From the NCBI GenBank assembly GCA_015295985.1, contig DVDX01000014.1, positions 62,001 to 126,000 of the forward strand: a DNA stretch of 64,000 bases, read 5' to 3'. Source of the stretch: Synechococcus sp. M44_DOE_062 (lineage in GTDB: Bacteria > Cyanobacteriota > Cyanobacteriia > Thermostichales > Thermostichaceae). Shown here piece after piece: positions 7,775 through 44,851 of this stretch. Below the pieces are notes generated by a model, which was given only the letters and a program-made list of their open reading frames with translations, did no database searches and was not told the DNA's origin. The position numbers and the translations under genes are program-made. Positions within the stretch are counted from its first letter, which is position 1, and each line of letters opens with the position of its first letter.

Positions 7775-7820
7775 AATCCAGATCCTAGAGGGCAGTGAGG
7801 CGATGGGTTTTGCTGCCTAT

Positions 7821-7862
7821 CTCCCCTCTCCCTCTGGGAGAAGAGCCGGGGGTGAGGGTTAA
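7821..7862. repeat. Intergenic repeat of CCCTCTCCC..GGTGAGGG type
   Basis: Reads CTCCCCTCTCCCTCTGGGAG, then AAGAGCCGGGGGTGAGGG. Related units occur at 46320-46360 and 61525-61568. The CTCCC/GGGAG arms form a short hairpin. It ends at the stop codon of the pentapeptide-repeat gene. Confidence 0.55.
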
Positions 7863-8389: not shown

Positions 8390-8536
8390 TGCGGATCCCT
8401 CCCTCCAGGAAACCTCCATGGCTTGGGAATTGCTCCTGGTTTTATCTTACCGGATGGGGATCCCGCCGGCAGATTGGGCTATCTTAAAGTCTTCTACAGA
8501 CCAGATCCGCGATTGGCGGGGGGGCGACAGGGATCC

Positions 8537-9085
8537 ATGTCTGAGATTGAGGTCTTCGATGCGGAGCAGTTGGCCGGGCTGATCGAGAGTCTGGCGGCGG
8601 CGATCGGCAGGGATCACCCCCACCCCCAGAGGTTGACGCTGATTGGCATTCGCACCCGGGGAGTCCCCTTGGCCTACCGCCTGCGGGATCGGATTGCCAC
8701 TCTACTGGGGATCCCGCCCCAAGTGGGGGAGCTGGACATCACTTTTTTCCGCGACGATTTGAGCGCCGGTGGGTTGCGCACCCCAGATCGCAGCGAGATG
8801 CCGCGTGACCTAACCGGTCAAGAGGTGGTGCTGGTGGATGATGTGATCTTTCGCGGTCGCACCGTCCGAGCGGCTTTGGAGGCCCTAAACCACTTTGGGC
8901 GACCGGAACGGGTGCGATTGGCGGTGTTGATTGACCGGGGTCACCGACAGTTTCCCATCCAGCCCGATTACTGCGGTTGTCAGCTTTCTACAGAACCGGA
9001 GCAAACGGTGAGAGTCCATCTGCGGGAAACCGATGCGGAAGAGCGGGTGCTGTTGATAGACAAAACAGCAAAGATTAAACCCTGA
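8537..9085 (+). CDS. pyrR: PyrR-type pyrimidine regulator / uracil phosphoribosyltransferase
   Basis: 182 residues from the ATG at 8537; 38 upstream in-frame codons lack family similarity. The PRPP-binding loop [21 protein letters not shown]-type motif (DDVIFRGRT) and the preceding strand identify a type I phosphoribosyltransferase, and the full-length pattern is PyrR. In Firmicutes PyrR binds pyr mRNA; in cyanobacteria the RNA-binding role is unproven and it may act only as an uracil phosphoribosyltransferase. No pyrimidine biosynthesis gene is adjacent. Confidence 0.88.
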
Positions 9086-9136
9086 ACCGGCGCTGGGGTG
9101 CGGTATTTTGGGGATGACCTGCTAAAACTTGCCGCC

Positions 9137-10108
9137 ATGCCTCGGTTGCCGGAAACTCGCCGTTACGCTGTTTTGGGTACGGGTGCTTTGGGAGGATTTT
9201 ATGGGGCGAAATTGCAACAGGCGGGCTTTGCGGTGCATTTTTTGCTGCACAGCGACTACGAGCATGTTCGCCAAAACGGCCTCTGGGTGCAGTCCTGCTG
9301 GGGAGACTTCCATTTGCCACAGGTGAATGCCTACGCAGCCGTAGAGGACATGCCCGCTTGCGAAGGGGTGATCGTGGCTTTGAAAGCCACCCAAAATGCG
9401 CTTCTGCCGCACTTGATCCCGCCTGTGTTGGCCGAGAATGGCGTGGTGATCTTGTTGCAAAATGGGCTGGGGGTGGAGCCCGAGATTGCCGAGTGCGTTG
9501 GCCCAGAACGGGTGATGGGGGGGCTCTGTTTCATCAGCTCCAATAAGGTTGGCCCCGGCCACATTCACCATCTGGATTACGGTTCGGTGCTGCTGGCAGA
9601 ATACGGCCCCGGCTATGCCCCCCAAGGGATCACACCCCGCCTTCAACAAGTTCAAGCTGATTTTCAACGGGCAGGGATCCCGACTTCTCTTTCTCCAGAT
9701 TTGATGCTGGCCCGCTGGCAGAAGCTCGTCTGGAACATTCCCTTCAACGGCCTCTCAGTGGTGTTCAATGCCGACACCCAGCAAATGATCCGAGACCCTG
9801 AGGCCCGTGCTTTGGCGGAAACGCTGATGCAGGAGGTGGTCCAGGGAGCTGCGGCCTGTGAGCGTCTGCTTCCGGATTCCCTGATCCAAGAAATGCTCAC
9901 CAACACGGAGAAAATGGCCCCCTACCGCACCAGCATGAAAATCGACTATGAGCGCAAACGCCCTCTGGAACTGCAGGCGATTTTCGGCAACCCCCTGCAG
10001 TACGCACAACAAGCAGGGATCCATCTGCCACGGGTTGAAATGCTCTACCGGCAGTTGCAGGTGTTGGATCGCCTGAATCGAGGGATCCCTGGGGAGCAGC
10101 AGGCTTAA
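9137..10108 (+). CDS. 2-dehydropantoate 2-reductase family protein (PanE/ApbA-like)
   Basis: 323 residues from the ATG at 9137; an ATG at 9098 would add 13. The N-terminus has the NADP-binding fold (YAVLGTGALGGFYGAKL), followed by the family's VALKATQN and LLQNGLG strands and a C-terminal ketopantoate-reductase domain with LVWNIPFNGLS. The family reduces ketopantoate to pantoate for coenzyme A, but has many paralogues of unknown substrate, so I leave the symbol blank. A pathway partner, panC, lies 5 kb downstream. Confidence 0.85.
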   Translation: MPRLPETRRYAVLGTGALGGFYGAKLQQAGFAVHFLLHSDYEHVRQNGLWVQSCWGDFHLPQVNAYAAVEDMPACEGVIVALKATQNALLPHLIPPVLAENGVVILLQNGLGVEPEIAECVGPERVMGGLCFISSNKVGPGHIHHLDYGSVLLAEYGPGYAPQGITPRLQQVQADFQRAGIPTSLSPDLMLARWQKLVWNIPFNGLSVVFNADTQQMIRDPEARALAETLMQEVVQGAAACERLLPDSLIQEMLTNTEKMAPYRTSMKIDYERKRPLELQAIFGNPLQYAQQAGIHLPRVEMLYRQLQVLDRLNRGIPGEQQA

Positions 10109-10208
10109 GTTTTTCAAGATCCGGCGGAGCGATCCTAGGGCTGGAGCAGGCTTTCTTCTTGGCTTGTGGGTAAACTGAGCCGCAGTCGTGTACTGCTGCT
10201 CTGGCTTT

Positions 10209-10757
10209 ATGCCGCTGGGATCCACCCACGATCGCATCACCCTCTGGACGGCCCCCGGCATCACCTTAGCCGCCGGTTTGTTGGGGAACAGCGCCACAGT
10301 TGCTCTGGCCGTGGGATCTGCCTATCTGTTCAGTGGCCTGATGTTTTCTGGAGATCTGGACACCTGTTCTCGACAGTATCAACGCTGGCTGTTCTTGCGC
10401 TGGATTTGGCTGCCCTACCGCAGGTGGATGCGGCATCGCTCTTTTTGGTCTCATGGGCCCATTGTGGGCACCGCCGTGCGGGTGCTGTACTTGAGCCTAT
10501 GGGCAGGCGGAGTTGGCCTGCTGGGGGCTTGGCTGGGATCCCGGTTGGGCTGGTGGATGTGGCAACCCTGGGTGTGGCGCAGCGATCTCTGGCAATTGCT
10601 GCAGGTTCACGCCGAGATGCTGTTTTGGATTGGGATGGGGTTGGAACTGGGATCGGTGAACCACACCCTAAGCGACTGGATGGTCTCCCGCTGGAAGCGC
10701 TGGCGCAAACGCCGTCAGGTTCAATCTCCCGCCAGGCAACTCAGCTATCGCCGCTAG
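10209..10757 (+). CDS. DUF2227 metal-binding membrane protein
   Basis: 182 residues from the ATG at 10209 (MPLGSTHDRITLWTAP); seven codons upstream are not family-like. The conserved histidine and aspartate positions of DUF2227 are visible: THDRITLW at the start, FSGDLDTCSRQY, and HRSFWSHGPIVG. These resemble the metal ligands of membrane-bound hydrolases. Three or four hydrophobic segments follow. The family is common in cyanobacteria; its function is unknown. A C-terminal basic stretch (RWKRWRKRR) is cytoplasmic by the positive-inside rule. Confidence 0.85.
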   Translation: MPLGSTHDRITLWTAPGITLAAGLLGNSATVALAVGSAYLFSGLMFSGDLDTCSRQYQRWLFLRWIWLPYRRWMRHRSFWSHGPIVGTAVRVLYLSLWAGGVGLLGAWLGSRLGWWMWQPWVWRSDLWQLLQVHAEMLFWIGMGLELGSVNHTLSDWMVSRWKRWRKRRQVQSPARQLSYRR

Positions 10758-11250
10758 GGATCCATTGGGCCAAGGGCTGATTCTTCTTTGCCAGCCGCAG
10801 TGGGAATTTGAGTGGCAATGAGGCTACCTACCCCCCACTTCCATTTAAAGGTGTTGCTGTGCCGTGCCCACAACTCTGTGACCTTTGGCCTAGGTACTCT
10901 GCTCAGCTCCCATAGCTTGTGGTCATTTCAATGAAGCTGGGACACTGCACCCACACCCAAAACCTGCAATTCAGGGGTTCAGAAGGCTTTTCTCAGTAAC
11001 CCAGGCGTCTCACTCTAAAATGAAACAACTCTTAATGCAGTTTTTATCTGGAACATTCCCCTTCTGTCGGCTAAATATTGCAATTTAGTCTCAATAGAGC
11101 TATGCTGTTACTCAGTTGAGTGGTGGAGTTATATCCATCAGTCTTCCTCTCTTGTCTTGGATGTGGCAGGGATCCTGCGCTGGCAGAAGCGGCCATCCTG
11201 CGTTAGCGGGGATCCCTTTTTCTCCTCTCCAGGGCTGAGCGAGGCTTTAC

Positions 11251-11269
11251 ACTAATGAAAATCAGTCTT
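11251..11269. promoter_or_regulatory. Possible Fur-box-like site
   Basis: ACTAATGAAAATCAGTCTT matches 13 of 19 positions of the classical enterobacterial Fur consensus (GATAATGATAATCATTATC). Cyanobacterial FurA sites differ somewhat, so this is only a candidate. It lies just upstream of a short open frame and 300 bp upstream of the small-RNA promoter. Confidence 0.25.
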
Positions 11270-11285
11270 AGTTGACAGGAGGTAC

Positions 11286-11441
11286 TTGTTGCTTGCTCGT
11301 GTCGATGTGGGGTGGTGGCAGGGTACGGGAGCAACAGCGGCTAGGGGTTATGGCTTCTGGGGCCAGAAGACAAGACCCAATACAAAGATTGCTACCCTAG
11401 TTTCCTTGGCCAACCTGGCAAAAGATAAGGCAAAAGACTAA
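11286..11441 (+). CDS. Possible 51-residue small protein, unrecognised
   Basis: A TTG-started frame directly after AGGAGGT (11277-11283); the second TTG at 11289 has better spacing. The product would contain GYGFWGQKTRPNTKIATLVS and end in a lysine-rich helix (AKDKAKD). The GF..Q....K.A pattern faintly recalls the Hlip/LHC family, but the motif residues are absent and there is no clear membrane helix. Only the ribosome site and the open frame support it; it may be non-coding. Confidence 0.25.
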   Translation: MLLARVDVGWWQGTGATAARGYGFWGQKTRPNTKIATLVSLANLAKDKAKD

Positions 11442-11535
11442 CTTTTTGGGACTTTTTGGGACAAGCTGTCTGTCCTATGGCTTACTTTGCTGTTCAAAAA
11501 TTCATGTCGAGTTAGAAAGAAATTTTAGAAAAAAG

Positions 11536-11565
11536 TTGAGCTGAGTGGGAAGAATCGGTTAAAAT
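11536..11565 (+). promoter_or_regulatory. Sigma-70-type promoter of the small RNA
   Basis: -35 TTGAGC (11536-11541) and -10 TAAAAT (11560-11565) with an 18-nt spacer, followed by a predicted start near 11572. The -10 region is embedded in an AT-rich stretch, and the pair fits the intrinsic terminator 40 bp downstream. Confidence 0.5.
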
Positions 11566-11571
11566 CTAGCT

Positions 11572-11637
11572 GGCGTTAACGCTAACCGCGACGAAGAGAC
11601 TGGAGGGAGGAAAGCCTAACAGCCTCTCTCCTTTTTT
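11572..11637 (+). ncRNA. Candidate small RNA of about 66 nt
   Basis: Bounded by the promoter at 11536 and the terminator at 11602-11637. The 5-prime part contains the self-complementary GCGTTAACGC (11573-11582), followed by a single-stranded-looking CGACGAAGAGACT and the terminator stem. No ribosome site with a sensible frame lies inside. I do not recognise it as Yfr1 (the Yfr1 core motif is absent), Yfr2, tmRNA or 6S RNA. Its size and the Fur-like site upstream recall the iron-stress RNA IsaR1, but I cannot show homology. Confidence 0.45.
11602..11637 (+). terminator. Intrinsic terminator
   Basis: A nine-pair stem, GGAGGGAGG (11602-11610) with CCTCTCTCC (11623-11631), one G-U pair, a 12-nt loop, then six T residues. 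The T-run exists only on the plus strand, so it does not serve the convergent ankyrin gene. Confidence 0.7.
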
Positions 11638-11741
11638 CTGTAGGCGTTGCTCTTGCTTACAAGCCTTACCTTGTGGGAAGGGAGACAGCTCAAACGCTCT
11701 GTGACTTGAAATATTGATTTGTTCCTATACCAAACTTGATA

Positions 11742-12497
11742 CTAAAGAGTTGCCCCTCGATCTTGTAACCATTGAGCCACCAGCCTGTGCTGGCGTTTTT
11801 GTGCATAGGCCAAAGGGGTATGCCCATCTTCGTTGCGAGGGTTTAGTTCGGCTCCATTTTCCAGCAAAAGCTCCAGGATTTGGATATGTCCTTCCCAAGC
11901 AGCCCAGTGCATCGGTGTTGCCCCAAATCGGTTGCGTGCATTCACATTGGCCCCGTACAAGATCAAAAAGCGAGCAATCCCTAAATCCCCTTGGGTGGCA
12001 GCTTCGTGCAGAGGGGTTCGGCCTGTCTCATCGGTAGCATCCACTGGCGCTCCCTTGGATAAGAGGCGGGCCAGAATGCTTTTTCGACCGGTGGCTGTGG
12101 CCCAGTGGAGAACACGACCGGTATTGGCTCCCTTTTGGATAAGCAGACCGATTGCCTCTACTTGATCGGTTAAAGCAGCCCGCTGCAGAGGGGTATAGCC
12201 ATAGTTATCTGGGAGATTGATATCACTGCCTGCCATTAAAAGACGCTCCACCAGCTTGACTTGACCGCCGGCGGCAGCCAAATGGAGAGGGGTGGCACCT
12301 GTGGGATCCAAGGCATTGGGAGAAGCGCCGTGGGCCAGGAGCAAGTCCAACAGTTCCAAATCGGCAAGGAGGGTTGCTTTATGAAGCAAGGTCATTCCCT
12401 GAGCATCCACAGCATTCACATCTTCCCCTTGCTGCAAATGGGCCAATAGTTGTTTTAGATCTCGATTGGCAAGAGCTTGATGAAGCGCTTCACTCAT
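11742..12497 (-). CDS. Ankyrin-repeat protein
   Basis: 251 residues from the ATG at 12497 (MSEALHQALANRDLKQLLAH). It consists almost wholly of about seven ankyrin repeats of 33 residues with the usual G-TPLH-A--G consensus (for example TGATPLHLAAAGGQVKLVER and FGATPMHWAAWEGHIQILEL). There is no signal peptide or membrane segment, so it is a cytoplasmic protein-binding scaffold; the partner is unknown. One repeat is degenerate (NTGRVLHWATATGRKSI). Not related in layout to the membrane-anchored ankyrin protein at 21742. Confidence 0.9.
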   Translation of the reverse strand: MSEALHQALANRDLKQLLAHLQQGEDVNAVDAQGMTLLHKATLLADLELLDLLLAHGASPNALDPTGATPLHLAAAGGQVKLVERLLMAGSDINLPDNYGYTPLQRAALTDQVEAIGLLIQKGANTGRVLHWATATGRKSILARLLSKGAPVDATDETGRTPLHEAATQGDLGIARFLILYGANVNARNRFGATPMHWAAWEGHIQILELLLENGAELNPRNEDGHTPLAYAQKRQHRLVAQWLQDRGATL

Positions 12498-12736
12498 AGT
12501 GGACAGAAACAAAAAAGCCAAGTTGCAGTGAAGCTGGGTAACAGGAAGGGATCCTCAGTAGGCCGGAATGTGGCTCCAAACAACTTGGGCAAAGTCTAAC
12601 ACTGGATCCCTGTTGCTGAGGGAATCAAGAGAATCGAGCACTTGGGGGATCCCTTGGTCAAGCCGGGGCTACAGGGGTAGACTAGAGCCGGTTTTCGGTC
12701 AAGTCTTTTCCCGCTCCTTTAGTTTCGCCACCGTTT

Positions 12737-13315
12737 ATGGATTACTACGCGATCCTGAACCTATCTCCTGAAGCAGACATGGAAGAGATTAAACAGGCGT
12801 TTCGGCAGTTGGCGCGGCAGTTTCACCCCGATGTGGCAGGGGAGGGATCCCGAGAGCGGTTCCAACAAATCCACCAAGCCTACCAAGTGCTGAGCGACCC
12901 TGAGCAGCGGCGGCGCTACGATGCACAACGTCAATCTCCACCCAGCTCTGCTGCTGCAGGCGAAAGGCGGGTGGTTATCCGCAGTACAGGCCCCTCTTCG
13001 GCGGAGCAGCCCAATCCGGAATTACTCAAAGAGGGGATTGCCCGTGTCAAAGCAGCCTGGCGGCAGCGGAAGTTGCCCACGGCAGTAGCCCAGGCAGAGG
13101 CGCTGCTGAAACGGTTTCCCAACTCCGGCGAGGCCATCCACATCTTGGCGTTGGCCTACCAGCGCTTCGGCAACCATCTGATCTACGAGGGGCGCCATCA
13201 GCAGGCGGAAGCTTACTTGAGAAAAGCTTTGGCCACGGAGCCGCACAACCGAGAATTGGCCTTTGAAATCAAGCGAGATTTGGCCCGTCTGGGCATTGGG
13301 GAGGGATCCGGCTAG
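12737..13315 (+). CDS. J-domain protein with C-terminal TPR-like helices
   Basis: 192 residues. Residues 1-66 form a complete J domain ([10 protein letters not shown], with the HPD tripeptide in [11 protein letters not shown]), so it can stimulate an Hsp70/DnaK ATPase. There is no Gly/Phe region and no zinc domain; instead a linker is followed by two or three TPR-like helix pairs ([20 protein letters not shown], then [20 protein letters not shown]). Such proteins deliver particular clients to DnaK; the client is unknown. Its last 4 nt overlap the 3-prime end of the convergent menE. Confidence 0.9.
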
Positions 13316-14706
13316 CTTGCCTGCGTTGAGATCCCCAACCTCTGAGCTGCCCACTGCTGGAGTTGTTGGCGGTTGACTTTGCCCTGGGGGTTGCGTGGGA
13401 TCCCGGTACACCACAGCCAATGCTTCGGGTGCTTGAAGGGACTCAGTTGGCGGCTTAGGTGTTGCTTCAGGTGCATTTCCAGCTCTTTGGGGAAGGCCGG
13501 GATCCCTGTTCTGGGAACAACCACCGCCACAACCTGCTGCCCCCATTCGGCATCCGGCAGGCCCAACACGCACACCTCTTCCACCCAGCCGCTGGCTCGG
13601 ATCTCCCCTTCTACTTCTGCAGCCATCACCTTTTCCCCGCCGGTCAGGATCAGGTCGTCGGCTCGACCCAGCCAATACAGGTATCCCTGGGGGTCTAGGT
13701 AGCCCAAATCGCCAGGGGTGAAGCCTCGCTGCTGCCATTCGTGCAAGCCATGGGCGATCTGGGGGTAGTAGCCCAGCGCCAGCGACTCTGCCCAGATGTG
13801 AATGAAGCCCACGGAGGGATCCCCTTGTTGGCTGCGGATCTGGAGCGTGGCGTGGGGCAGGGGCCGGCCCAGGCTGTCGTTGCCTTGCCAAAACACTTCC
13901 GGCAACAGCGTACAGACTTGGGAAGCCGTTTCCGTCGTGCCATAGGTGAGGGCCAGGGGGAGGTGAAGCTGCCGGGCCTGTTGCCGCAAGCTGGGCCAGG
14001 TGGGGCCACCGCCAACCAAAATGGCCCGAAATTGGCGCAGGCTCTCCAAAACTCCCGGATGGGCGTTGAGCAACAGCCGTTGTAACTGAGTGGGCACCAG
14101 CGACAGAAAGCTCCCCGGCAAAGGGGGATCCCAAGCCTCGGCCTGCTGTTGCCGTTTCCAATCCCAGATGACCCACTGCCCACCGCTCAGCCAGGAGCGG
14201 ACTGCCTGCATCAAACCGCTGACATGGTACAGGGGCAGAACGCAATAGCTGTGTACAGGCCCGACGGTAAAGTGCTGTTGGTGGGCTTTGGCCGAGGCAC
14301 TGAGGGTCAGCCAAGAGTGCATGGCCCATTTCACTTGGCCGCCGGAGCCCCCCGTGGGGATGCTGATCAACGGCCAATGGGAGCTGGGCACAGCTTCCCG
14401 CAACTCCTGCAGGCGCGGATTCAAGGCAGCGGGATCCCCTTCCAGTCGGCCCTGTCGCCAGCACCAGCCGGATCCCATATCCGCCAAAGCCTGTCTCCAT
14501 TCCCGTTCTCCCCAGTGGGGATTACCCAAGAACAGCGGGATCCCCAAGCGTTGGCAGGTCAAAACCGCCGCCCACACCTGCACTGGATTCGAGTCTGCCA
14601 CCAGCAGGGGAACGGCCTTGTCTGCCAAAGGGCGCAGTTGCTCTTCCAGTTCGGACAGGCGCCCCTTCAAGTCTCCGCCATCCCCGGACAAGGCAATTGA
14701 CCTCAT
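13312..14706 (-). CDS. menE: o-Succinylbenzoate-CoA ligase (MenE), phylloquinone synthesis
   Basis: 464 residues of the acyl-adenylate-forming family. Visible motifs are the phosphate loop [15 protein letters not shown], the adenine motif [10 protein letters not shown], the hinge motif [20 protein letters not shown] and the C-terminal catalytic lysine region ([13 protein letters not shown]). MenE activates o-succinylbenzoate with CoA on the way to phylloquinone, the photosystem I electron carrier. Length and the short N-terminal domain fit cyanobacterial MenE rather than acyl-CoA synthetases. No other men gene is in the window. Confidence 0.88.
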
Positions 14707-14850
14707 GGGTTGTGGGTTGCAACCTCAACGGCTTCGCCGATTCCCTGCATTGTATTCGAGGATGCCCGCTCAATTCCCTTGACAGGAAAGGGTGAGGATG
14801 GGTTTGGGCTTGGCTTATCATGATTTAGGTTTAACTGGGAGGTCTGTGTT

Positions 14851-14964
14851 GTGATCGAGCCAATTTTGTTGGGGATCGTGTTGGGAATGGTGGTGGTCAC
14901 CTTGGCGGGCTTGTTCGTGGCAGCCTACAGGCAGTATCAACGCAGCAACAAGATCGGCCTGTAG
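14851..14964 (+). CDS. petG: Cytochrome b6f complex subunit PetG
   Basis: A 37-residue single-span thylakoid protein, the normal length of PetG. It begins with GTG ([20 protein letters not shown]) and ends [13 protein letters not shown], matching the family throughout. A good ribosome site (GGGAGGT, 14838-14844) precedes the GTG. PetG is needed for assembly and stability of the b6f complex. It lies 57 bp upstream of panC-cmk and may be co-transcribed with it. Confidence 0.95.
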
Positions 14965-15021
14965 GAACAGCCTTTGGGAGGGTTGGAGAAAGCCCATTGA
15001 GGAGAGATAGATTGAGGTGGC

Positions 15022-16656
15022 ATGGCAATGCACTGGCTGCGCACAGTTGCTGCTTTGCGGGAGCAGGTAGCCCATTGGCGGGGATCCACAGTTGGCTTGG
15101 TGCCCACGATGGGATCCCTGCATGAGGGCCATCTCAGCCTAATCCGCCGCTGCCGGCAAGAGTGTGACCACACGGTGGTCAGCATTTTCGTCAATCCACT
15201 GCAGTTTGGCCCCAACGAAGACTGGGATCGCTATCCCCGCGACGAAGAGGGGGATCGGGCCTTGTGCGAGGCAGCAGGTGTAGATGTGGTGTTTGCGCCT
15301 GACCCGGAGGAGATGGGAGCCAATCCGGCAACCGGAAGCGACCGCACCTGGGTCATGCCCCCCGAATCCCTTCTGCAGACCCTCTGCGCCCCCCACCGAC
15401 CTGGCCACTTTCGCGGCGTGGCCACCATTGTGCTGCAACTGCTGAACTTGGTACAGCCGCAGCGGGCCTACTTTGGCCAGAAAGATGCCCAGCAACTGGC
15501 GATCATTCAGCGTTTGGTTCGGGATCTGCAGATACCCACCACGATTGTCCCTTGCCCCACGGTGCGAGAAGCCGATGGCCTTGCCTGTAGCTCCCGCAAC
15601 CGCTACCTTTCTGCTGCTGAACGACAGGTGGCCGCCGGGCTATACCGGGCCTTGCGTCGAGGATATGACCATTGGCGGGCCGGGGATCCCTCAGCAGAAG
15701 GGATCCTTGCCGCTGCCCGTGCTGAGCTGGAGCATACCCCAGAGCTGCAACTGCAATACCTGGAATTGGTGGATCCCCAAACGCTGCAACCGCTGCCGCG
15801 GGTGGAAGACAAGGGCCTGCTGGCCATTGCTGCCTATGTGGGGCAAACTCGCCTGATCGACAACCTGCTCCTTTCCCCGGAGCAAGGGGATCCCTTGCCA
15901 GAGGGATCCCAGCATGCGGCACCGCCCTCTTCCGGCACGACTTCTCCCCCGCGTCGCCCGCTGATTGCCATCGACGGCCCGGCTGGAGCCGGAAAATCCA
16001 CCGTGGCGCGGGCAGTGGCAGCCCAACTGCAACTGCTCTACTTGGATACCGGAGCCATGTATCGGGCCATCACTTGGCTGGCTCTGCAAAGAGGGATCCC
16101 TCTGGACGATGCCGAGCAACTGACCCAACTGGCTGCCCAAACCCAGCTCACCCTGCAAAGTGGTACCTCTTCGACAGAGCCGACTCGCATCTGGGCCGAT
16201 GGTGAAGAGATTACCCAGGCCATTCGCTCTCCAGAGGTGACCCGCTGGGTCTCTCACGTGGCGGCAGTGCCGGGAGTACGCCAAGAGCTGGTGAAGCGGC
16301 AACGCAGCATTGGCCGGGATGGCGGTGCTGTCTTGGAGGGGCGGGACATCGGCACCCACGTCTTTCCCGATGCAGAGCTGAAGGTCTTTTTAACGGCTTC
16401 TGTGGGGGAGCGGGCGCAGCGTCGGCAACACCAACTCCAAGCCCAAGGGCAAATGGTACCCCTTGAAGAGTTGAAAGCGCAAATCGAGCAGCGGGATCGC
16501 CGTGACAGCGAACGGCTCATCTCTCCTTTGCGACCTGCCCCCGATGCCATCCTGATCGACACAGATCACCTGAGCCAATCCGAGGTGGAAGACAAGATTG
16601 TAACCTTGTACCGGCAACTTTTGGAGCGATCCGGCTTGGCTGGTTTTGATCAGTAG
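15022..16656 (+). CDS. panC/cmk: Fused pantothenate synthetase / cytidylate kinase (PanC-Cmk)
   Basis: 544 residues with two enzymes in one chain. Residues 1 to about 285 are pantothenate synthetase (PTMGSLHEGHLSLIRR, FVNPLQFGPNED, YFGQKDAQQL), which joins pantoate and beta-alanine. After a proline/serine linker of about 25 residues, residues 312-544 are cytidylate kinase with a P-loop near residue 320 (IDGPAGAGKSTVARA), the CMP-binding LDTGAMYRAITW and GRDIGTHVFPDAELK. This fusion is a known cyanobacterial feature. The ATG at 15022 follows TTGAGGTGGC. Both domains look catalytically complete. Confidence 0.96.
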   Translation: MAMHWLRTVAALREQVAHWRGSTVGLVPTMGSLHEGHLSLIRRCRQECDHTVVSIFVNPLQFGPNEDWDRYPRDEEGDRALCEAAGVDVVFAPDPEEMGANPATGSDRTWVMPPESLLQTLCAPHRPGHFRGVATIVLQLLNLVQPQRAYFGQKDAQQLAIIQRLVRDLQIPTTIVPCPTVREADGLACSSRNRYLSAAERQVAAGLYRALRRGYDHWRAGDPSAEGILAAARAELEHTPELQLQYLELVDPQTLQPLPRVEDKGLLAIAAYVGQTRLIDNLLLSPEQGDPLPEGSQHAAPPSSGTTSPPRRPLIAIDGPAGAGKSTVARAVAAQLQLLYLDTGAMYRAITWLALQRGIPLDDAEQLTQLAAQTQLTLQSGTSSTEPTRIWADGEEITQAIRSPEVTRWVSHVAAVPGVRQELVKRQRSIGRDGGAVLEGRDIGTHVFPDAELKVFLTASVGERAQRRQHQLQAQGQMVPLEELKAQIEQRDRRDSERLISPLRPAPDAILIDTDHLSQSEVEDKIVTLYRQLLERSGLAGFDQ

Positions 16657-16948
16657 CTTTGAGCAACAGAAAACCTCAAATCAAGGGGACGAATAAGATT
16701 GGCAGGATTTTCGAGGAGCTGGCCGGTTTGAACAGCTTGGGCTTAGTCCTCATTTTTCTCGTTGAGTTCTCATTGCAATGGAGTTAATGGGTGTTGGTGG
16801 ATGCAGATCCTTGGATTGAGTGCTGAACTTTGGCAAAATCACCGAGGTGGTGGGGTGCCGGAGGAGATCCCGCTGATGATGAAAAGAGGCCGACCTGCTT
16901 TTGGCCGATGTCACCTATATTCCGTTCCGTTGTTGCGAACGGAGCACT
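16657..16948. promoter_or_regulatory. Spacer with possible promoter upstream of the CNNM gene
   Basis: About 290 bp without a gene. TTGAGT, 17 nt, TAATGG (around 16763-16791) is a weak promoter candidate for the downstream membrane protein gene. TGCGAACGGAGCAC before the start resembles the end of the 27-bp repeat family but is too short to call. Confidence 0.25.
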
Positions 16949-17983
16949 ATGGTTAATGTCTTTCTCTTGGCCTTTCTGCTGCTTCTCTCAGGAGCTTGCT
17001 CTGGGGCCGAAACGGCCATCACAGCTATGGATAACCTGCGCCTGGAATCCCTGATCGAAGAGCAAGGGGATCCCCAGGGCTTGTATCGACTGGCCCAACA
17101 ACAGCGCTCGCGGCTGATCACCACCCTGTTGCTGGTGAACAACTTTGTCAACATCGGCATTGCCGCCTTGGCCACAACCCTCTCTATTGAACTGTTGGGA
17201 ACCCAGATTGGAGCTTTGGCTGCCACTGTGCCCACTACGATTGTGGTGCTCCTCTTTGGAGAAGTAGCCCCAAAGTCCTTGGCGGTGAGCCATCCGCTGG
17301 GGGTGTTCCGCTGGGTGGTGCGGCCTGTCTATATCCTATCGCTGCTGCTGCGCCCTTTCAGCGATGCTTTTGAGTGGGTTGTCAGCAGGCTCTTCAATCT
17401 GTTGGAATTCTCCCCACTGACGGCCACCGCTTCTCTCAAAGATTTGGAGCTGCTGATCGATGTGTTGGGGCAGCGGGGGCTGCTGGATTGGCAAAAACGG
17501 CGGCTGTTCCGTGGGGCCTTGGCTTTGGACTTACTCCAAGCGCGGGACGTGGCCAAGCCAAGGGTAAAAATGGAGACCATTTCCCACGACAAAACGCTAC
17601 AAGATGTGGTAAAGCTCTGTTTGGAAACGGGCTACTCCCGCATCCCTGTGCAGGGAGAGTCCAAGGATGAGATCGTCGGCATTATCCACCTCAAGCAAGC
17701 CTTGCGCCATCTGGATCAAAAAGGCAATGCCGAAGTGACCCAGGCAATGGCACCCCCTTTTTTTGTGCCGGACACCAAGCGGGTCAGCCTGTTGCTCAAG
17801 GAAATGCTGCGCTCTCGCCAACACCTGGGGATTGTGGTGGATGAGTTTGGCGGCACCACCGGCCTCATCACGCTGGAAGACATTTTGGAGGAGCTGGTGG
17901 GGGATATCTACGACGAGAGCGACCTCTCCCCCCTGCTGCTGCAGCGACAACGACGAGGTGGCTCTTCCGCCTCTTCCGGCTGA
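16949..17983 (+). CDS. CNNM/CorC-type membrane protein with CBS domains
   Basis: 344 residues from the ATG at 16949 (MVNVFLLAFLLLLSGACSGAETA); an in-frame TTG at 16901 would add 16 residues without family similarity. The N-terminal DUF21 membrane domain (about residues 1-170) has the conserved SGxxSGAETA entry and the VAPKSLAV segment. Two CBS motifs follow (VCLETGYSRIPV; LGIVVDEFGGTTGLITLEDI). It lacks the C-terminal CorC/HlyC domain. The family transports or senses magnesium and other divalent ions; often annotated 'hemolysin', which is not supported here. Convergent with the next gene. Confidence 0.88.
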   Translation: MVNVFLLAFLLLLSGACSGAETAITAMDNLRLESLIEEQGDPQGLYRLAQQQRSRLITTLLLVNNFVNIGIAALATTLSIELLGTQIGALAATVPTTIVVLLFGEVAPKSLAVSHPLGVFRWVVRPVYILSLLLRPFSDAFEWVVSRLFNLLEFSPLTATASLKDLELLIDVLGQRGLLDWQKRRLFRGALALDLLQARDVAKPRVKMETISHDKTLQDVVKLCLETGYSRIPVQGESKDEIVGIIHLKQALRHLDQKGNAEVTQAMAPPFFVPDTKRVSLLLKEMLRSRQHLGIVVDEFGGTTGLITLEDILEELVGDIYDESDLSPLLLQRQRRGGSSASSG

Positions 17984-18020
17984 GCACCATGAGCAAGTCG
18001 AGTTATCCACCCTCTAAGTT

Positions 18021-18344
18021 TTAGCTGGCCCTTGAGGGATCCGTCTCCACGACTGTTGGATTCTCGTGCGCATCGCCTTTGGGAGTGAACTCCACAAAGT
18101 CAGCATCGACGGGATAGCGGGCCACAAAAAAAATCCAGAAGCTGTGGATCCCCAATCCCAAAGCCCACCAGCCCAACAGGGGCGCCAGCCACGGCCAATC
18201 CGCCCGGTACAGTTGCTGAAAAAACACCAGCCCAGACCCGCTGCAGAGAAAAACGGCAATGTGGGCGGCATAGGTATAGCGATCATCCAGCTTGCGAAAT
18301 TCGGGATCCCGACGGGTGGGCTTGCGGGGCCAGCGAGGGGGCAT
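18021..18344 (-). CDS. Small 2TM-domain membrane protein
   Basis: 107 residues from MPPRWPRKPTRRDPEFRKL. A basic N-terminus and the conserved LDDRYTYAAHIAVF segment lead into two membrane helices (AVFLCSGSGLVFF; LGWWALGLGIHSFWIFF). This is the cyanobacterial '2TM domain' pattern, in some proteins attached to kinases or regulators. Function unknown. It is 69 bp upstream of nblS on the same strand; co-transcription is possible. Confidence 0.75.
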   Translation of the reverse strand: MPPRWPRKPTRRDPEFRKLDDRYTYAAHIAVFLCSGSGLVFFQQLYRADWPWLAPLLGWWALGLGIHSFWIFFVARYPVDADFVEFTPKGDAHENPTVVETDPSRAS

Positions 18345-18413
18345 GGCAAAACCATTCAGTTAAAACCTTCTCCAGTGTAGAACAGGGATCCCCAAAAGTT
18401 GGGATCGGCATTC

Positions 18414-20504
18414 CTAAGGTTGGTGGGAATGGTAGGGGTACTCCCGCCAAGCGCAACTGGGGGGATCCGTCTCGGCGGGCGGATCCGTGAACTCCAGGGG
18501 CGAGCCCTCTGCATACAGATGCAGATCGAACCAAAAGGTGGATCCCTGTTCCAGTTTGCTCTCCAGGCGGATGCAGGTGTGGTGCTTTTCCAGAATGTTG
18601 CGCACGATGGCCAACCCCAGGCCCGTCCCCTCCAGGGTATGCACGCGGTTCTCCACCCGGAAAAAGCGGTCAAAAATCCGCTCTTGATCCTCTGGGGCAA
18701 TGCCAATGCCCGTATCGGCCACCGCCACCCGCACCGCCTGCGGGGATCCGTCCGCCTGAACCACCAGGTGGGCATGCACCGTCACCAGGCCCCCTGAGGG
18801 AGTGAACTTGAGGGCATTGCCCAGGAGATTGGTCATCACCTGCAAGAGCAGATCGTAGTTGCCCCACACCAAGGGCAGATCGGGATCGACGAATTTGCGC
18901 AACTGGATTCCTTTGTCGCGGGCCTGCAGGTGGTGGGTGCGCAGCGTTTGCTCGATCACCGCCGAGATATCAACGCCCTCGAAGTGGTACTGCTTGCCCG
19001 ATTCCAGACGGGACAAATCCAAAACATCGTTGACCAGGCGGGTGAGGCGGTCGGTTTCGCGGTTGGCAATTTCCAGATAATCCTGCCGCTCGGCGGGGGA
19101 CATCTGCTCGCCGTACTCGTAGAGGGTCTCGATAAAAGACTTGATGCTGAAGAGGGGGGTGCGCAGCTCGTGGCTGATGTTGCTGATGAATTGGGCCTTG
19201 GCTTCGTTGAGCTCTGCCTCGCGGGTGATGTCCTGCACCGTCATCACAATCCCCTTGAGATTTTGCCGACGCGGATCCGACACCGGTGAAAGCAGAATGC
19301 GAATGACGCGCTTGGTGGGGCCGCTGAGGTTGACGCGAACTTCCTCTGCCTCTTGATCCCCGCGGGCAATGTGCATCAGAGGGCGGGCCAGTTGCTGCCG
19401 CAGATCCTCCGGCAACAGCTCCGGCAAGGGTTTGCCCAAAACGGGATCCCCTTCCCAGCCAAACATACGGGAGGCGGCAGGATTGAGCAGCAGCACCCGC
19501 AACTCCGCATCCAGCAAAATGGCAGCATCGACGATGGAGAAGACCAAGGTCTCCAGCTTGGCTTTGGCAGCAGCCAATTCTTCGATGTTTTGTTCTTCGT
19601 AGCTTTGCAGCCGCTCCGCCATCTCGTTAAAGCTGTCGATGAGCTGGGCCAGCTCTCCCCCGAAGGGCAGGTCAATGCGCTGCTTGAAGTTACCTTTGGT
19701 GATCTCCTGGACGCCCTTGACCAGTTCTTTGATGGGGTAGGTGATGGTGAGGGCATTGACCACCGCTCCCAGGATGGCCAAGACCCACACCGCCAGAAAC
19801 ACCCCAATCGAGACCTCCCGCGCCAGTTGGGTGGAGCGCACCAGGGCGGGATTGGGATTGATCCCCAGGCCAAGGGTGCCCAAAAAGCGGCCCTGATGGT
19901 AGATGCCGACAAAAATATCCGTCACCCGCCCGGCAGGGGTGAGGTGGGTGCGCACCAGCGGTTGGCCCTCAGCAGGGGGGCGATTGTCCGGCAATTGCAT
20001 GCGACGGGTGAGGCTGAGGGAGGTTTTCACCTCTTGGTTGGAAAACGGGATCCCGTAGTAGATGTTTCCCTCGGGATCGGCGTAGAGCAGATAGCGGATG
20101 CTGCTGGTGCTCTCAAAGTACTGGCGGGACAGTTGCGCCACTTCCCCAATGCGATCTTCCGCAATCAGGGGGGCGACATTGGCGGCCAAGAGCAACCCCA
20201 GATCTCGGCCAAAGCGGGCTTCGTTGAAGCGAGCATCCTGCTGCACGGTGCTGACGGCCCAGAAGGTGAAACTGCTCACCACCAATGAGACCACCAGCGT
20301 TGCCACAAAGAGCAACTGAGTTTCCAACCGCAGTTTTTGCTTCCATCGCGCCCACCAGCGCCGCAGGGATCCCATGGGGATCCTGGTTGTTGTTGGCTCT
20401 GACATGTCCACAGCACCAGACAACGGCTCGGCAGAAGAAGCCAGCTCAGGAGATTGGACTTCGGCAATGGGCTCGGCTGGCTCGACAGTGCTGACAGGAG
20501 GCAT
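18414..20504 (-). CDS. nblS: Sensor histidine kinase, NblS/Hik33 (DspA) type
   Basis: 696 residues from the ATG at 20504; longer starts (to 20621) add residues I do not recognise. Order of parts: a variable N-terminus of about 80 residues, a first membrane helix (LLFVATLVVSLVVSSFTFWA), a periplasmic sensor region, a second helix (SIGVFLAVWVLAILGAVVNA), HAMP, PAS, HisKA with phosphoacceptor histidine near residue 440 (NISHELRTPLFSIKSFIETL) and HATPase with N, G1 and G2 boxes (NLLGNALKFTP, VADTGIGIA, GTGLGLAIV). SHELRTPLFSIKSFIETLYEYG is the near-universal NblS signature. NblS controls responses to high light, cold and nutrient stress via RpaB; that regulator is not in this window. Confidence 0.9.
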   Translation of the reverse strand: MPPVSTVEPAEPIAEVQSPELASSAEPLSGAVDMSEPTTTRIPMGSLRRWWARWKQKLRLETQLLFVATLVVSLVVSSFTFWAVSTVQQDARFNEARFGRDLGLLLAANVAPLIAEDRIGEVAQLSRQYFESTSSIRYLLYADPEGNIYYGIPFSNQEVKTSLSLTRRMQLPDNRPPAEGQPLVRTHLTPAGRVTDIFVGIYHQGRFLGTLGLGINPNPALVRSTQLAREVSIGVFLAVWVLAILGAVVNALTITYPIKELVKGVQEITKGNFKQRIDLPFGGELAQLIDSFNEMAERLQSYEEQNIEELAAAKAKLETLVFSIVDAAILLDAELRVLLLNPAASRMFGWEGDPVLGKPLPELLPEDLRQQLARPLMHIARGDQEAEEVRVNLSGPTKRVIRILLSPVSDPRRQNLKGIVMTVQDITREAELNEAKAQFISNISHELRTPLFSIKSFIETLYEYGEQMSPAERQDYLEIANRETDRLTRLVNDVLDLSRLESGKQYHFEGVDISAVIEQTLRTHHLQARDKGIQLRKFVDPDLPLVWGNYDLLLQVMTNLLGNALKFTPSGGLVTVHAHLVVQADGSPQAVRVAVADTGIGIAPEDQERIFDRFFRVENRVHTLEGTGLGLAIVRNILEKHHTCIRLESKLEQGSTFWFDLHLYAEGSPLEFTDPPAETDPPSCAWREYPYHSHQP

Positions 20505-40336: not shown

Positions 40337-40498
40337 AGCATTTTCCTGGAGCTGTAGTTGCTTCAGGTTAGGGCGAGACGCCGGAGCTATTGAGAAACAC
40401 TGACGCGAAGACGCGACCGACGTTTCGGGTGTGGGCACAGTATCCTAGTTTGAACCAAAATGAGCATAACGATCTCCCAAAACTCAGGCAAGAAAAAC

Positions 40499-41299
40499 CT
40501 AGAGATACCGCGTCATTTGCACTCGGAAGCGACCTTTTTTCGTTTCGGCTACCTCTTCAATTTGCAGCCGACCCCGACCTCGAATGGCAATCCAATCCTG
40601 AGGGCCAACGGTGTAGCTGGCTTGGGTAATGGGCTTCCAATTGACCCGCACTTCCCCCCGTTGGATTTCTTCCACCATCTTGCTGCGGGAGATGCCAAAC
40701 CCGGCTGAGGCTACTGCATCCAAGCGCAAAGAGGCTTCTACGCTGGTGATGGATTTGACACGAGGGGGTTGAATGTTCAACTGACTCAGGGGGATCCGGC
40801 CCACTTTGACGGGCACTGTACGCACCTGAGTTAGGTTTAGGGTGAGGTAGTCCACCATTTCGGGCACAACAATGGCCTGGGCACCTGAGTCCCCCAACAC
40901 GAGGATGTCTCCCACTTTCTCGCGGGCGATGCCGGACGACAACAGGGCTCCCAGAAAATCGCGGTGGGTGGCCGGGTCGAACAGAAAGTTGCCTTGAATC
41001 TGAATGGCGGCCAATGGGATCCCTTCTGGGTCACGCTCTGGATCCCGGACGTCTAGACCCACCTCAGAGCGAGCCAGGGCCAAGCGTTGGCGTTCTGCTT
41101 GAGGGTACCCTCCCCAAGCCCACACTTGCAGTTCGGTCAAGTTGCGCAGCCGAGCTTGCACCTCTGCTATTTCGGGTGGGGAAAGGAAGTCGCTCCAGAC
41201 CACTTGCCAGGTCTTGAGGGCTTGCTCTCCCAAATCCAAGACTCGTGCCAAGGTTTCTCGATACTCTGCCCCTTGCAACAAATCGGCTCTGGGTAGCAT
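40499..41299 (-). CDS. Photosystem II S4-domain protein
   Basis: 266 residues. The N-terminal two thirds is YlmH-like (AWGGYPQAERQRLALARSEV; ILVLGDSGAQAIVVPEMVDY), and residues 190-260 form an S4 RNA-binding domain (SLRLDAVASAGFGISRSKMV, VRVNWKPITQASYTVGPQDW, AIRGRGRLQIEEVAETKKGR). In cyanobacteria this protein was found with photosystem II, but RNA or ribosome binding is the domain's activity. Divergent from tRNA-His by 68 bp. Confidence 0.9.
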   Translation of the reverse strand: MLPRADLLQGAEYRETLARVLDLGEQALKTWQVVWSDFLSPPEIAEVQARLRNLTELQVWAWGGYPQAERQRLALARSEVGLDVRDPERDPEGIPLAAIQIQGNFLFDPATHRDFLGALLSSGIAREKVGDILVLGDSGAQAIVVPEMVDYLTLNLTQVRTVPVKVGRIPLSQLNIQPPRVKSITSVEASLRLDAVASAGFGISRSKMVEEIQRGEVRVNWKPITQASYTVGPQDWIAIRGRGRLQIEEVAETKKGRFRVQMTRYL

Positions 41300-41367: not shown

Positions 41368-41441
41368 GGCGGGCGTAGCCAAGCGGTTAAGGCAGAGGAT
41401 TGTGGATCCTCCATTCGTGGGTTCGAGTCCCATCGTCCGCC
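41368..41441 (+). tRNA. tRNA-His (GTG)
   Basis: Begins with the extra G-1 (41368) paired to C73 (41441), then acceptor GCGGGCG/CGTCCGC. The anticodon loop ATTGTGGA contains GTG. T-loop GGTTCGAGTCC is present. The tRNA is followed by an integrase remnant, so its 3-prime end may have served as an attachment site. Confidence 0.95.
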
Positions 41442-41509
41442 CTCAGGCAAAGCAAGCAAAACGCGCTCCAGAAGCGGCTTTAGCGTGACATCCCCAAAAA
41501 CACGATTGA

Positions 41510-41570
41510 GGAAAATCGTGGGAAATCGTGGAAAATCGAGGGAAATTTTTAGGCCAGGTATTAGGCCAGG
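41510..41570. repeat. Short tandem repeats between tRNA-His and the integrase remnant
   Basis: Three diverged units of GAAAATCGTGG (41510-41546) followed by two copies of TTAGGCCAGG (41549-41558 and 41561-41570). Such clusters can be integrase arm sites, but this is a guess. Confidence 0.4.
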
Positions 41571-41580
41571 AAATGCTGGC

Positions 41581-41889
41581 ATGGCCAGGCGACGCTCTAA
41601 GCAGCTATCCGAGGACAACTAGGAACTCCTGAGCCGAGTAGCTCAGGCCAACGGGCGGCTACGGGCTGGGAAAATCGGACTGGTGATCGAGGTTCGGGGA
41701 AACCGGTTCTATTTGAGGGGCACACTGCCGCCCAAGCCTGGCAGTCAGGCGCAACGGCCACACTATCAAAGGCTCGCAACGGGCATTTTGGCTAACCTAG
41801 GAAACCTGCCTTCAGTTGAAGGCCTGGCGCGGCGAGTGGCGGTGGAGAGGGAAGGTCAGTTTTATGGCTCGTATTTCAGGAAAACGTAG
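41581..41889 (+). pseudogene. Tyrosine integrase N-terminus broken by in-frame TAG
   Basis: Starting at ATG 41581 the frame reads MARRRSKQLSEDN, then TAG (41620-41622), then continues without a frameshift through ELLSRVAQANGRLRAGKIGL and EVRGNRFYLRGTLPPKPGS to a final stop at 41887-41889. The pattern N-G-R-L-x-G followed by I-x-x-x-G-N-R-x-x-L-R-G-T-L-P-P-K-P-G-S is the N-terminal arm-binding region of cyanobacterial phage-type integrases. The core-binding and catalytic domains are absent, so the gene is both interrupted and truncated. It lies 140 bp after tRNA-His, in the same direction. Confidence 0.7.
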
Positions 41890-41933
41890 CTAAGCTGAGA
41901 TGACAATCCTCTAGGTCAAACAGAATTGCTCCC

Positions 41934-42338
41934 TTAGTAGTATTTCTTCATGCGAGTTGGAACAACAACACTTTGAATTTCTACACCACGGATAGACTTT
42001 CCAATGATATCTGACATTACACTTGCTCCTTTTCCTTGAGCGGCGTAAAGTATAAAGCGGCGTACCCTGATTACATTACTTTGTGTAGTTCTCCCGGTAG
42101 CAATAAATCGCTCTAGAATCCCTTTTCTGACCAAAAGACCTATCTTCGTAGGCGGAAACTTTAATTTTTCTTCGTCAGAAGCTTCCCTGATTCCAGTTAT
42201 AGTTGCTATATCTCCTTTGTAAACCCCATCAGTGCCTAGAAAGAAATAGTTGGTGGGAATGGTAGTAGCACTACCGCTGTCACCGCTGGTACCCCAAGTT
42301 CGTTGCACAGTTGCTTTTAGCAGAATTAGCTTAGGCAT
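41934..42338 (-). CDS. Unknown 134-residue protein, orphan pair (downstream member)
   Basis: Product begins MPKLILLKATVQRTWGTSGD and ends KSIRGVEIQSVVVPTRMKKY(Y). It is soluble, basic, and shares the C-terminal pattern GK-xx-RGxEI-x-S-xx-(V/I)PxR with the neighbouring 95-residue product, so the two are likely paralogues. The DNA is visibly more AT-rich than the surrounding genes, suggesting transfer. It follows its partner by 11 bp on the same strand, within the stretch after the integrase remnant. I do not recognise the family; a phage or mobile-island origin is only inferred from position. Confidence 0.65.
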   Translation of the reverse strand: MPKLILLKATVQRTWGTSGDSGSATTIPTNYFFLGTDGVYKGDIATITGIREASDEEKLKFPPTKIGLLVRKGILERFIATGRTTQSNVIRVRRFILYAAQGKGASVMSDIIGKSIRGVEIQSVVVPTRMKKYY

Positions 42339-42349
42339 GGCTACTTCTG

Positions 42350-42637
42350 TTAAGCAGATAGACGAGCTCTGACTGGAATCTTTGCCGATGTAATTTCATT
42401 GCCCCTGTACTTTTTGCCTAGTAGTTGTACTATCGCTTCAGGTACTTTGTCAGCAACACACCATATCATCGCTGTTTTGCTAACGCCGTTTTTCTTATAG
42501 CTGATTCTTAGTCTCATCAGATATCCAGAATCCCAAAGAGATTTAGGCTCAAATGTAGGTTTATTTTCTACATAACCCTCGGTAAATCCGCAAGTAGAGG
42601 CAAAATTGCTTCCGTCGTTTGCATAGTGAGCAGGCAA
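42350..42637 (-). CDS. Unknown 95-residue protein, orphan pair (upstream member)
   Basis: Product begins MPAHYANDGSNFASTCGFTE, includes a basic middle (RLRISYKKNGVSKTAMIWCV), and ends GKKYRGNEITSAKIPVRARL. The last 20 residues match the end of the 134-residue product in the positions G-K, R-G-x-E-I, S and P-x-R. AT-rich DNA, same strand, 11 bp before the partner. A promoter-like TTGACA is at 42769-42774 on the minus strand without a clear -10. No function can be assigned. Confidence 0.6.
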   Translation of the reverse strand: MPAHYANDGSNFASTCGFTEGYVENKPTFEPKSLWDSGYLMRLRISYKKNGVSKTAMIWCVADKVPEAIVQLLGKKYRGNEITSAKIPVRARLSA

Positions 42638-42778
42638 GATTATGTTAACTTCTCCTAATCCTAGGAACTTTGGCCTTGAAGGGCCGGTACTTAACTGCTG
42701 TCATGGAGAGCTCCCGTTAATCTGTAATGACGCAGTAACTCCGTAAAGAGAGAGACACCAGCAGGATTTGTCAATAAG
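42638..42778. other. Spacer upstream of the orphan pair
   Basis: Includes the end of the island-like stretch. I looked for a second copy of the tRNA-His 3-prime end here and did not find one, so the far attachment site, if any, is lost or elsewhere. Confidence 0.35.
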
Positions 42779-44851
42779 TTAGCTGCAGCTCAAGACTAAG
42801 GTTCCCACCTCGTCGATGATACCCCTCCAACCCCCTTCTATCACCGCAGTTGCTTCCGGCATCTCGACAATTGCCGGCCCACGCAGTTGGAATCCCACAC
42901 CCATGCGCTGCCGATCGTAGACCGGCACCAGGCACATCTTGCCCCCAAACCAAGCCTCTCGCCGACCCTTGAAGGGATCCCCGGGCAAGGGGTGGGGTGC
43001 AGTCAAAGGCACAGTGGGTAGGGCCTGCACCGCCTGTAGACGCAACTGAATCACCTCCACTGTCTGGGCCGAATCCTGCCATCCGTAGCGTTGCTGGTGG
43101 GCCCGGTGAAATTGTTCTTCCAGGTGGGCAATCGGATCCGACAACCGCACTGGGATCCCCAACTCAAAAGACTGGCCGCGATAGCGCAAGTCCAAGCTGA
43201 AGTGCAGCGCCGGATCCTGTAGATCGGCTTGGGCCTGGCGGATCAGGGGTTCTGCCCATTGAGGCAGCAGGGATCCCCCTGAATCGGACACAAGCTGCTG
43301 CAGAGGTTGGAGGATGGCCCGCCGATAATCTCGCCGCAGATCCGCCAAAGCCATTCCCAGCGCCGAGAGCACCCCACAGGCAGCCGGGATCAAGATCTTG
43401 CGGATGCCCAGCTCTTCCGCCAGGGCACAGGCATGCATTGGGCCTGCCCCGCCAAAGGCCAACAGGGCAAAGTCGGCGGGATCCAAACCCCGCTCCACGC
43501 TGATCACCCGCAAGGCCCGCGACATAGCGACATTGGCCAAGGTGCGAATGCCAACGGCAGTTTCCTGCAAGCTCAAACCCAAGGAATCCGCCAGCGTGGC
43601 CACAGCCTGTTCCGCCAGCTCCCGCCGTAGCCGCACCGAGTCGCCCAGCCGCCCGCCATCCGGCAGGTACCCCAGCCAGAGGTTAGCATCGGTCACCGTT
43701 GGAGCCGTTCCCCCCCGACCGTAGCAGGCTGGCCCAGGGTTGGATCCGGCACTCTCTGGCCCCACCTGGAGCCCACCGCCGGGCAGCAAATGGGCCAGGG
43801 ATCCGCCACCGGCACTGACGGTGTGGATGTCAATTTGGGGCTGTTGCACGGGCAAGCCGCACACCACCGCTGCAGGAGTAACCTGGGGGATCCCATCTTG
43901 GACCAAGGCCACATCCGTGCTGGTTCCCCCCATATCGAAGCTGAGCAAGTGGGGGTAGCCACTCAGCCGACCCAGATAGGCCGCCCCGTAAACTCCGCCT
44001 GCCGGCCCTGAGAGCAAAGCCACCGAAGCATGGGCCGCCGCCTGAGGGATGGAGGTTACCCCGCCGGAAGATTGCATGATCAAGGGTTCGGGGATCCCTC
44101 GCTCCCGACATCCTTGGGCCAAGCGGTGCAGGTAGCCCGCCAGTGCCGGGCTGAGGTAGGCATCGATGGCGGTGGTGCTGAACCGCTCGTATTCCCGGAA
44201 CTCCGGCGCCACCTCGCAGGACAGGGAAAGGTGCAGATGGGGAAAAGCCTGTCGCAAGGCCGTTCCTAGCCGCTGTTCATGCTCCGGGTAGAGAAAAGAA
44301 AACAAAAACCCCACCCCAATAGCGCGGATCCCATCCCGCTGCACCCGTTCCCCCACCTCCTGCACCACCCGCCAGATTTCGGCATCGGTGAGCGGCTCCA
44401 ACACTCCGCCCGCGCTGCAGCGCTCCTTCACCTCCAGGCAATGGTGGCGGGGCACCACCGGCTCCGGTTTGGGCTGCGTTAGGTCATACAGAGAGGGGCG
44501 GTTTTGACGGGCAATGGCCAGCACATCTCGAAAGCCCGCCGTGGTTAGAAACAGGGTGGGGGATCCCTTGCGCTCCAGCAGCGCGTTGGTGGCCACTGTC
44601 ATGCCATGACAGAACAGGTCAACCCAGAGCTCTCCTTGGAGGGCTCCCAGTTTGTCCAGCGCCGCAAAGACTCCCTCCTCAGGGCTGGGGGTAGACAGCA
44701 CCTTCGCCGTCTGAATCTGGCCGTCGCGCAGGAGCACCAGATCGGTAAAGGTGCCCCCCACATCGATCCCCAGGCGGGCCAAGCCTCGGCTTGCTTCCGT
44801 CTGATCCAGATTGGCCGGATCGATGTTGCTACCCAACGCTGACGCGACCAT
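42779..44851 (-). CDS. Hydantoinase A / 5-oxoprolinase A-type ATPase (orphan)
   Basis: 690 residues. HyuA family: the ATPase-like start LARLGIDVGGTFTDLVLL, then CHGMTVATNALLERKG, LLSGPAGGVYGAAYL, SFDMGGTSTDVAL and ALLAFGGAGPMHACALAEEL. The family hydrolyses hydantoins or 5-oxoproline with ATP, together with HyuB. In most genomes hyuB is adjacent or fused; here the next gene is unrelated, so the partner is elsewhere or absent. Substrate not determinable. The C-terminus (AVIEGGWRGIIDEVGTLVLS) is complete. Confidence 0.88.
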   Translation of the reverse strand: MVASALGSNIDPANLDQTEASRGLARLGIDVGGTFTDLVLLRDGQIQTAKVLSTPSPEEGVFAALDKLGALQGELWVDLFCHGMTVATNALLERKGSPTLFLTTAGFRDVLAIARQNRPSLYDLTQPKPEPVVPRHHCLEVKERCSAGGVLEPLTDAEIWRVVQEVGERVQRDGIRAIGVGFLFSFLYPEHEQRLGTALRQAFPHLHLSLSCEVAPEFREYERFSTTAIDAYLSPALAGYLHRLAQGCRERGIPEPLIMQSSGGVTSIPQAAAHASVALLSGPAGGVYGAAYLGRLSGYPHLLSFDMGGTSTDVALVQDGIPQVTPAAVVCGLPVQQPQIDIHTVSAGGGSLAHLLPGGGLQVGPESAGSNPGPACYGRGGTAPTVTDANLWLGYLPDGGRLGDSVRLRRELAEQAVATLADSLGLSLQETAVGIRTLANVAMSRALRVISVERGLDPADFALLAFGGAGPMHACALAEELGIRKILIPAACGVLSALGMALADLRRDYRRAILQPLQQLVSDSGGSLLPQWAEPLIRQAQADLQDPALHFSLDLRYRGQSFELGIPVRLSDPIAHLEEQFHRAHQQRYGWQDSAQTVEVIQLRLQAVQALPTVPLTAPHPLPGDPFKGRREAWFGGKMCLVPVYDRQRMGVGFQLRGPAIVEMPEATAVIEGGWRGIIDEVGTLVLSCS

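Follow-up and report, generated by a model that had tools for sequence, protein, structure and literature searches.

The question raised by this locus is whether the short segment that separates a tRNA-His gene from a hyuA-type hydantoinase gene is what is left of an integrated element and, if so, to which kind of element it belonged. The locus lies in the 64,000-nucleotide stretch of Synechococcus sp. M44_DOE_062 DNA that was analysed here (the window), in a genome of 2.93 Mb. Tyrosine integrases commonly target the 3' ends of tRNAs. The first-pass annotation, which had recognized a tRNA-His, tandem repeats, the N-terminus of such an integrase, and a pair of AT-rich genes, had taken the locus for the relic of an integrated element that kept two genes. 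Empty sites in related genomes and integrase homology support the integration; of the two retained genes, one (gene B) is probably frameshifted. It is probable that the locus represents a genuine decayed integration, in which an integrative element of the B-A type (named after its tandem gene pair) entered at the 3' end of tRNA-His via its own integrase and was then eroded.

The tRNA-His gene (GTG anticodon) was located at 41369-41442 on the plus strand. It is the presumed integration target and left attachment side, and its 3' end is single-copy in the genome. On the left it is flanked by a minus-strand gene (40499-41299), named an S4-domain gene in the first-pass annotation, which lies beside tRNA-His also in the same-genus genomes G001, G003, G004, and G005. 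On the right, the hyuA-type gene occupies 42779-44851 on the minus strand. The inserted segment between tRNA-His and hyuA measures 1,342 bp and is mostly AT-rich. Its tandem repeats consist of four 10-bp A-rich units (GGAAAATCGT, GGGAAATCGT, GGAAAATCGA, and GGGAAATTTT; 41510-41549, plus strand) and a twin TTAGGCCAGG repeat with a period of 12 (41549-41570, plus strand), immediately 5' of the integrase frame (41581-41889, plus strand). The AT-rich gene pair corresponds to two minus-strand open reading frames (ORFs), 41934-42338 (gene A) and 42350-42637 (gene B). The stretch 42705-42784, to which no gene was assigned, forms the end of the inserted DNA. Its junction on the right coincides with the stop codon of hyuA, and the ancestral spacer and the right attachment site are missing. 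The GC content is 41-45 % in the A and B ORFs, 55-59 % in the integrase stump, and approximately 60 % in hyuA. A dispersed intergenic repeat of approximately 75 bp is present at 40396-40470 of the window. Full or partial copies of it number 36 in the window genome and 13 in G004, where one copy sits in the tRNA-His/hyuA spacer; G001, G002, G003, and G005 have none.

Comparison within the genus revealed sites without the insertion. The distance between tRNA-His and hyuA is 115 bp in G001 and 340 bp in G004. Both genomes are devoid of 41443-42784 and have the S4-domain gene, tRNA-His, and hyuA in collinear order around a short spacer, an outcome that the first-pass annotation had named as support for insertion. 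The left flank up to 41443 is 94.5 % identical to that of G004 and 84 % to that of G001; for the right flank, where homology to the relatives starts at 42785, the values are 92.7 and 81.4 %, respectively. Both flanks are collinear, and the spacers of G001 and G004 are both unlike the inserted segment. G003 and G005 have the left flank in common with the window and carry a different gene downstream of tRNA-His. The window thus contains an insertion at the tRNA 3' end that is absent in relatives. Just 3' of tRNA-His, a mutually similar, integrase-less sequence (GTCAGGGCAAGGGCT...) was observed in G003, G004, and G005; these sequences may have been left behind by other insertions at this tRNA.

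The integrase gene adjacent to the tRNA is present as an N-terminal stump only. Its frame ends after approximately 102 codons, the catalytic domain being absent, and it contains an in-frame TAG (41620-41622). The 88 residues after the TAG (41623-41889) match the N-termini of intact integrases of 365-450 amino acids. Matches to the stump were obtained in 62 of the 96 genomes searched. None was found in the same-genus genomes G001-G005; with the genome of the window itself set aside, the best one (E 9.5e-23) is in G007, which belongs to the same family. Another match in G007, 54 % identical over 74 amino acids, is an intact frame of 422 amino acids located on the same strand directly after tRNA-His. 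The 376-amino-acid integrase at a tRNA-Phe in G043 is 40 % identical to the stump over 85 amino acids. Intact homologues match integrase families of PHROGs, and those of Pfam at or slightly below the cut-off, in both cases via their C-terminal parts. These matches bear out the assignment of the frame as a truncated integrase, homologous to intact ones that lie beside tRNAs. In the draft genome of G007, several integrase frames of the same type, some of them truncated, are spread over contigs C119, C143, C146, C232, and C235, which suggests repeated element turnover.

Several intact tRNA-adjacent integrases show the repeat layout of the window: repeats of approximately 10 bp on the 5' side are followed by a twin TAGGC/TAGTC repeat near the start codon. 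The twin TAGGC-type pattern was found at 14 of 19 tRNA-adjacent integrase loci and at 4 of 27 other integrase loci (Fisher P 1e-4), a value that is indicative only, as the set holds some near-duplicate loci, counts the window twice, and was scored with a pattern picked after a partial look at it. The frequency of the pattern in shuffled stretches was 2 %. A variant twin, TAGCCAAC, is present at the tRNA-His locus of G007 and was missed by the pattern. The repeats are read as putative integrase binding sites or as an integrase operator, the four A-rich units being candidate arm-type sites. As a cis signature, the twin TTAGGC repeat beside an integrase could be of use in locating both intact and decayed integration sites.

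Gene A encodes 134 amino acids, is apparently intact, and is the second member of the B-A pair. Gene B (42350-42704, with the conserved part at 42350-42670) encodes 95 amino acids when read from a TTG, in a frame that is open up to 42700. A candidate ATG is present where the start would be expected (42704), but it is not in frame with the conserved part, whose own frame offers only a late TTG start; gene B is therefore probably broken, by a 5' frameshift. The two genes are paralogous (E 4e-6; the score was reached by none of 5,000 shuffles). They had been called unassignable, and comparison with Pfam, PHROGs, and NCBIfam indeed gave nothing above chance. Searches of phages, plasmids, and IMG/VR contigs with A and B gave no match either, and nor did a scan of genome contigs with A. 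Presence of both small genes in all relatives had been considered an argument against transfer; no significant match to A or B was obtained in the 95 other genomes searched, those of the same genus included. Weak single-sequence matches among relatives were dismissed, on inspection, as chance frames.

Profiles, however, assign both genes to the B-A pair of mobile elements. A B homologue with 47 % identity, followed by an A homologue, is present in G373. A profile scan of 218 genomes from the family that includes Nostoc detected B-type genes in 36. Of 377 genomes sampled throughout the phylum, 13 have such genes, and the window genome is the sole representative of its own family among these. 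Profiles from which the window was left out, built on homologues that had first been reached from the window's B, ranked B (E 1.2e-17) and A (E 3.2e-16) at the top among 753 window ORFs, and each profile also found the other gene. The tandem arrangement of B then A on one strand, as present in the window, was seen at 13 of the 16 mapped loci. Most likely, the proteins encoded by A and B would have had a structural or surface role in the element.

Elsewhere, the B-A pair occurs on integrative elements whose hosts are Nostocaceae and related, mostly filamentous cyanobacteria. B-A loci often have a module in common that consists of the protein families fam2, fam15 or fam12, fam3, fam4, B, A, fam21, and fam5 or fam9. 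The fam2 proteins (110-120 amino acids) are often duplicated, fam3 proteins (about 700-930 amino acids) combine collagen repeats with an alanine zipper and give collagen and tail-fibre matches, fam4 proteins count about 300 amino acids, and those of fam5 or fam9 are short and holin-like by eye. A LamG-like protein is sometimes present, and a tyrosine recombinase often lies nearby together with a primase/helicase or ATPase. None of the core module families has an entry in Pfam, NCBIfam, or PHROGs, and profile searches of the PDB with B, A, fam2, and fam4 gave nothing significant. AlphaFold2 models computed from single sequences reached a pLDDT of 49 for B and 34 for A, too poor for a fold search.

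The order at locus L131 of G043 is tRNA-Phe, integrase, fam2, fam22, fam2, fam15, fam3, fam4, B, A, and fam21, with a helicase further on. An integrase of the same type as the stump and the B-A pair, which are adjacent in the window and presumably of joint origin there, are thus parts of one element in G043. A sister element in G025 (L132, about 6081-18732) spans 12.6 kb between two 43-bp direct repeats that correspond to the 3' end of tRNA-Phe, the expected trace of site-specific integration. It contains an integrase, a primase/helicase, fam2, fam3, fam4, and fam21. Within the stretches examined, no tRNA-end repeat was found at the loci of G007, G043, G389, and G475. In G389 (L133), a B-type gene without A lies beside tRNA-Lys. 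At L085 of G475, A and B point towards a tRNA-Phe, after which the twin repeat is present but no integrase, a situation like that in the window, and at L134 fam4 and its neighbours face an integrase. Other B-A members carry different recombinases (fam8, fam37). The 1.3-kb segment of the window holds none of fam2, fam3, and fam4, and fam4 is absent from the window genome as a whole; family membership therefore refers to the genes A and B alone.

No second copy of the tRNA end had been seen nearby, and this holds for the whole window genome even when two mismatches are allowed. The direct repeat at the far border that marks a tRNA-integrated element is thus lacking, as is expected if the right end was deleted, and the locus is for that reason classed as a relic and not as a complete element. 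Since the right attachment site is gone, we infer the borders of the element, the order of its losses, and the joint arrival of the stump with A and B. From the anatomy of the locus, the element would have integrated at the 3' end of tRNA-His through site-specific recombination by its own tyrosine integrase. Intact relatives are small, about 12.6 kb in the single case with both borders, and carry an integrase, a primase/helicase or ATPase, the phage-like module, and often B-A. A deletion that reached as far as the 3' end of gene A would then have taken the catalytic domain of the integrase and all that lay in between, and a stop would have arisen at integrase codon 14. Loss of the far end would have included the right attachment site as well as the former spacer between tRNA and hyuA, and a 5' frameshift apparently arose in gene B.

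Not all observations fit a single element equally well. The repeat of the right attachment site is missing from the window genome. In the window, A and B are on the strand opposite to the integrase, while they share its strand in G043, and the G025 element with its 43-bp repeat has no B-A pair. The stump and A/B could come from separate elements that used a single hot spot: first an older one, of which the attachment arm and the integrase stump remained, and then A and B, brought in later by an unrelated element or by a recombination. The difference in GC content between the two parts fits such a course of events, as does the impression that tRNA-His was targeted repeatedly, given the intact integrase of G007 and the integrase-less sequence of G003, G004, and G005. 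Convergent layouts do occur in the family (L085, L134), yet an inversion in the window is possible. Since the tRNA-Phe element of G043 combines an integrase of this type with B-A, and since the other mapped B loci lie in multi-gene elements, several of them with recombinases, we consider two separate events rather unlikely. That A and B are ordinary vertical genes lost from the sister genomes, next to an integrase-like frame that arose by chance, is extremely improbable. The comparison did include one genome per species only, but none of the 95 relatives yielded a significant match to A or B, the integrase homology is highly significant and is placed as in G007, and the empty sites of G001 and G004 contradict this explanation.

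The relic, in itself an ordinary genomic scar, led to a widespread family of cyanobacterial elements. Members of it occur at tRNA genes, part of the module is found also on circular plasmids, and its phage-like genes include none recognized as serving capsid formation or packaging. Some observations would fit an origin from a tailed prophage that lost its head and tail genes: in G373, the neighbourhood of the B-A pair includes an M15 endolysin as well as tail-assembly-like and LamG-like virion proteins, and fam3 has its collagen and tail-fibre matches. Such an origin is nevertheless very unlikely, as no terminase, portal, or capsid family was detected with Pfam and PHROGs among the selected genes of some elements that were compared, searches of viral contigs with B, fam2, and fam4 gave no relatives, and nor did searches of 50,697 phage records with B and fam4. 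The parent elements may be viruses, satellites, or plasmid-like elements. Tentatively, and as a doubtful possibility, they would form an unrecognized family of small cyanobacterial viruses that integrate, or of phage satellites, with a size of roughly 12-16 kb. Fibre, LamG, lysis, and holin-like genes would be their own, and their coat proteins, for which A/B or fam4 are candidates, would belong to no known family. If this were true, the window would contain the only trace so far of that family in this thermophile-type lineage. In the literature on prophages of Yellowstone Synechococcus, on islands of cyanobacteria, and on elements of Nostoc, the listed titles and abstracts gave no description of the element, which may nevertheless have been described before.

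Among known systems, the islands and prophages that tyrosine integrases insert at tRNAs resemble the window in having an integrase beside the tRNA 3' end, repeats in between, a foreign composition, and empty sites, but the window differs from them in being decayed, with the right attachment site lost and the catalytic domain gone. Two circular plasmids of Nostocales cyanobacterium HT-58-2, pHT582-1 (CP019637.1; L098) and pHT582-2 (CP019638.1; L097), both carry fam3 and fam4, to which pHT582-1 adds fam2, a fam8 recombinase, and fam21, while ParA/ParB are annotated on pHT582-2. Unlike the window, neither plasmid has a recognizable B or A. Their fam3 and fam4 proteins are annotated only as hypothetical proteins. 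Compared with the B-A elements, the window retains only the integrase stump, A, and B, its host belongs to a distant unicellular lineage, and A/B are convergent with the integrase, in contrast to the single-strand arrangement in G043. These elements (L131 in G043, L074 in Nostoc sp. S13, and L077-L089) nonetheless have the same tandem paralogous B and A as the window, combined with a recombinase in several of them and with a neighbouring tRNA in G043 and, for B alone, in G389.
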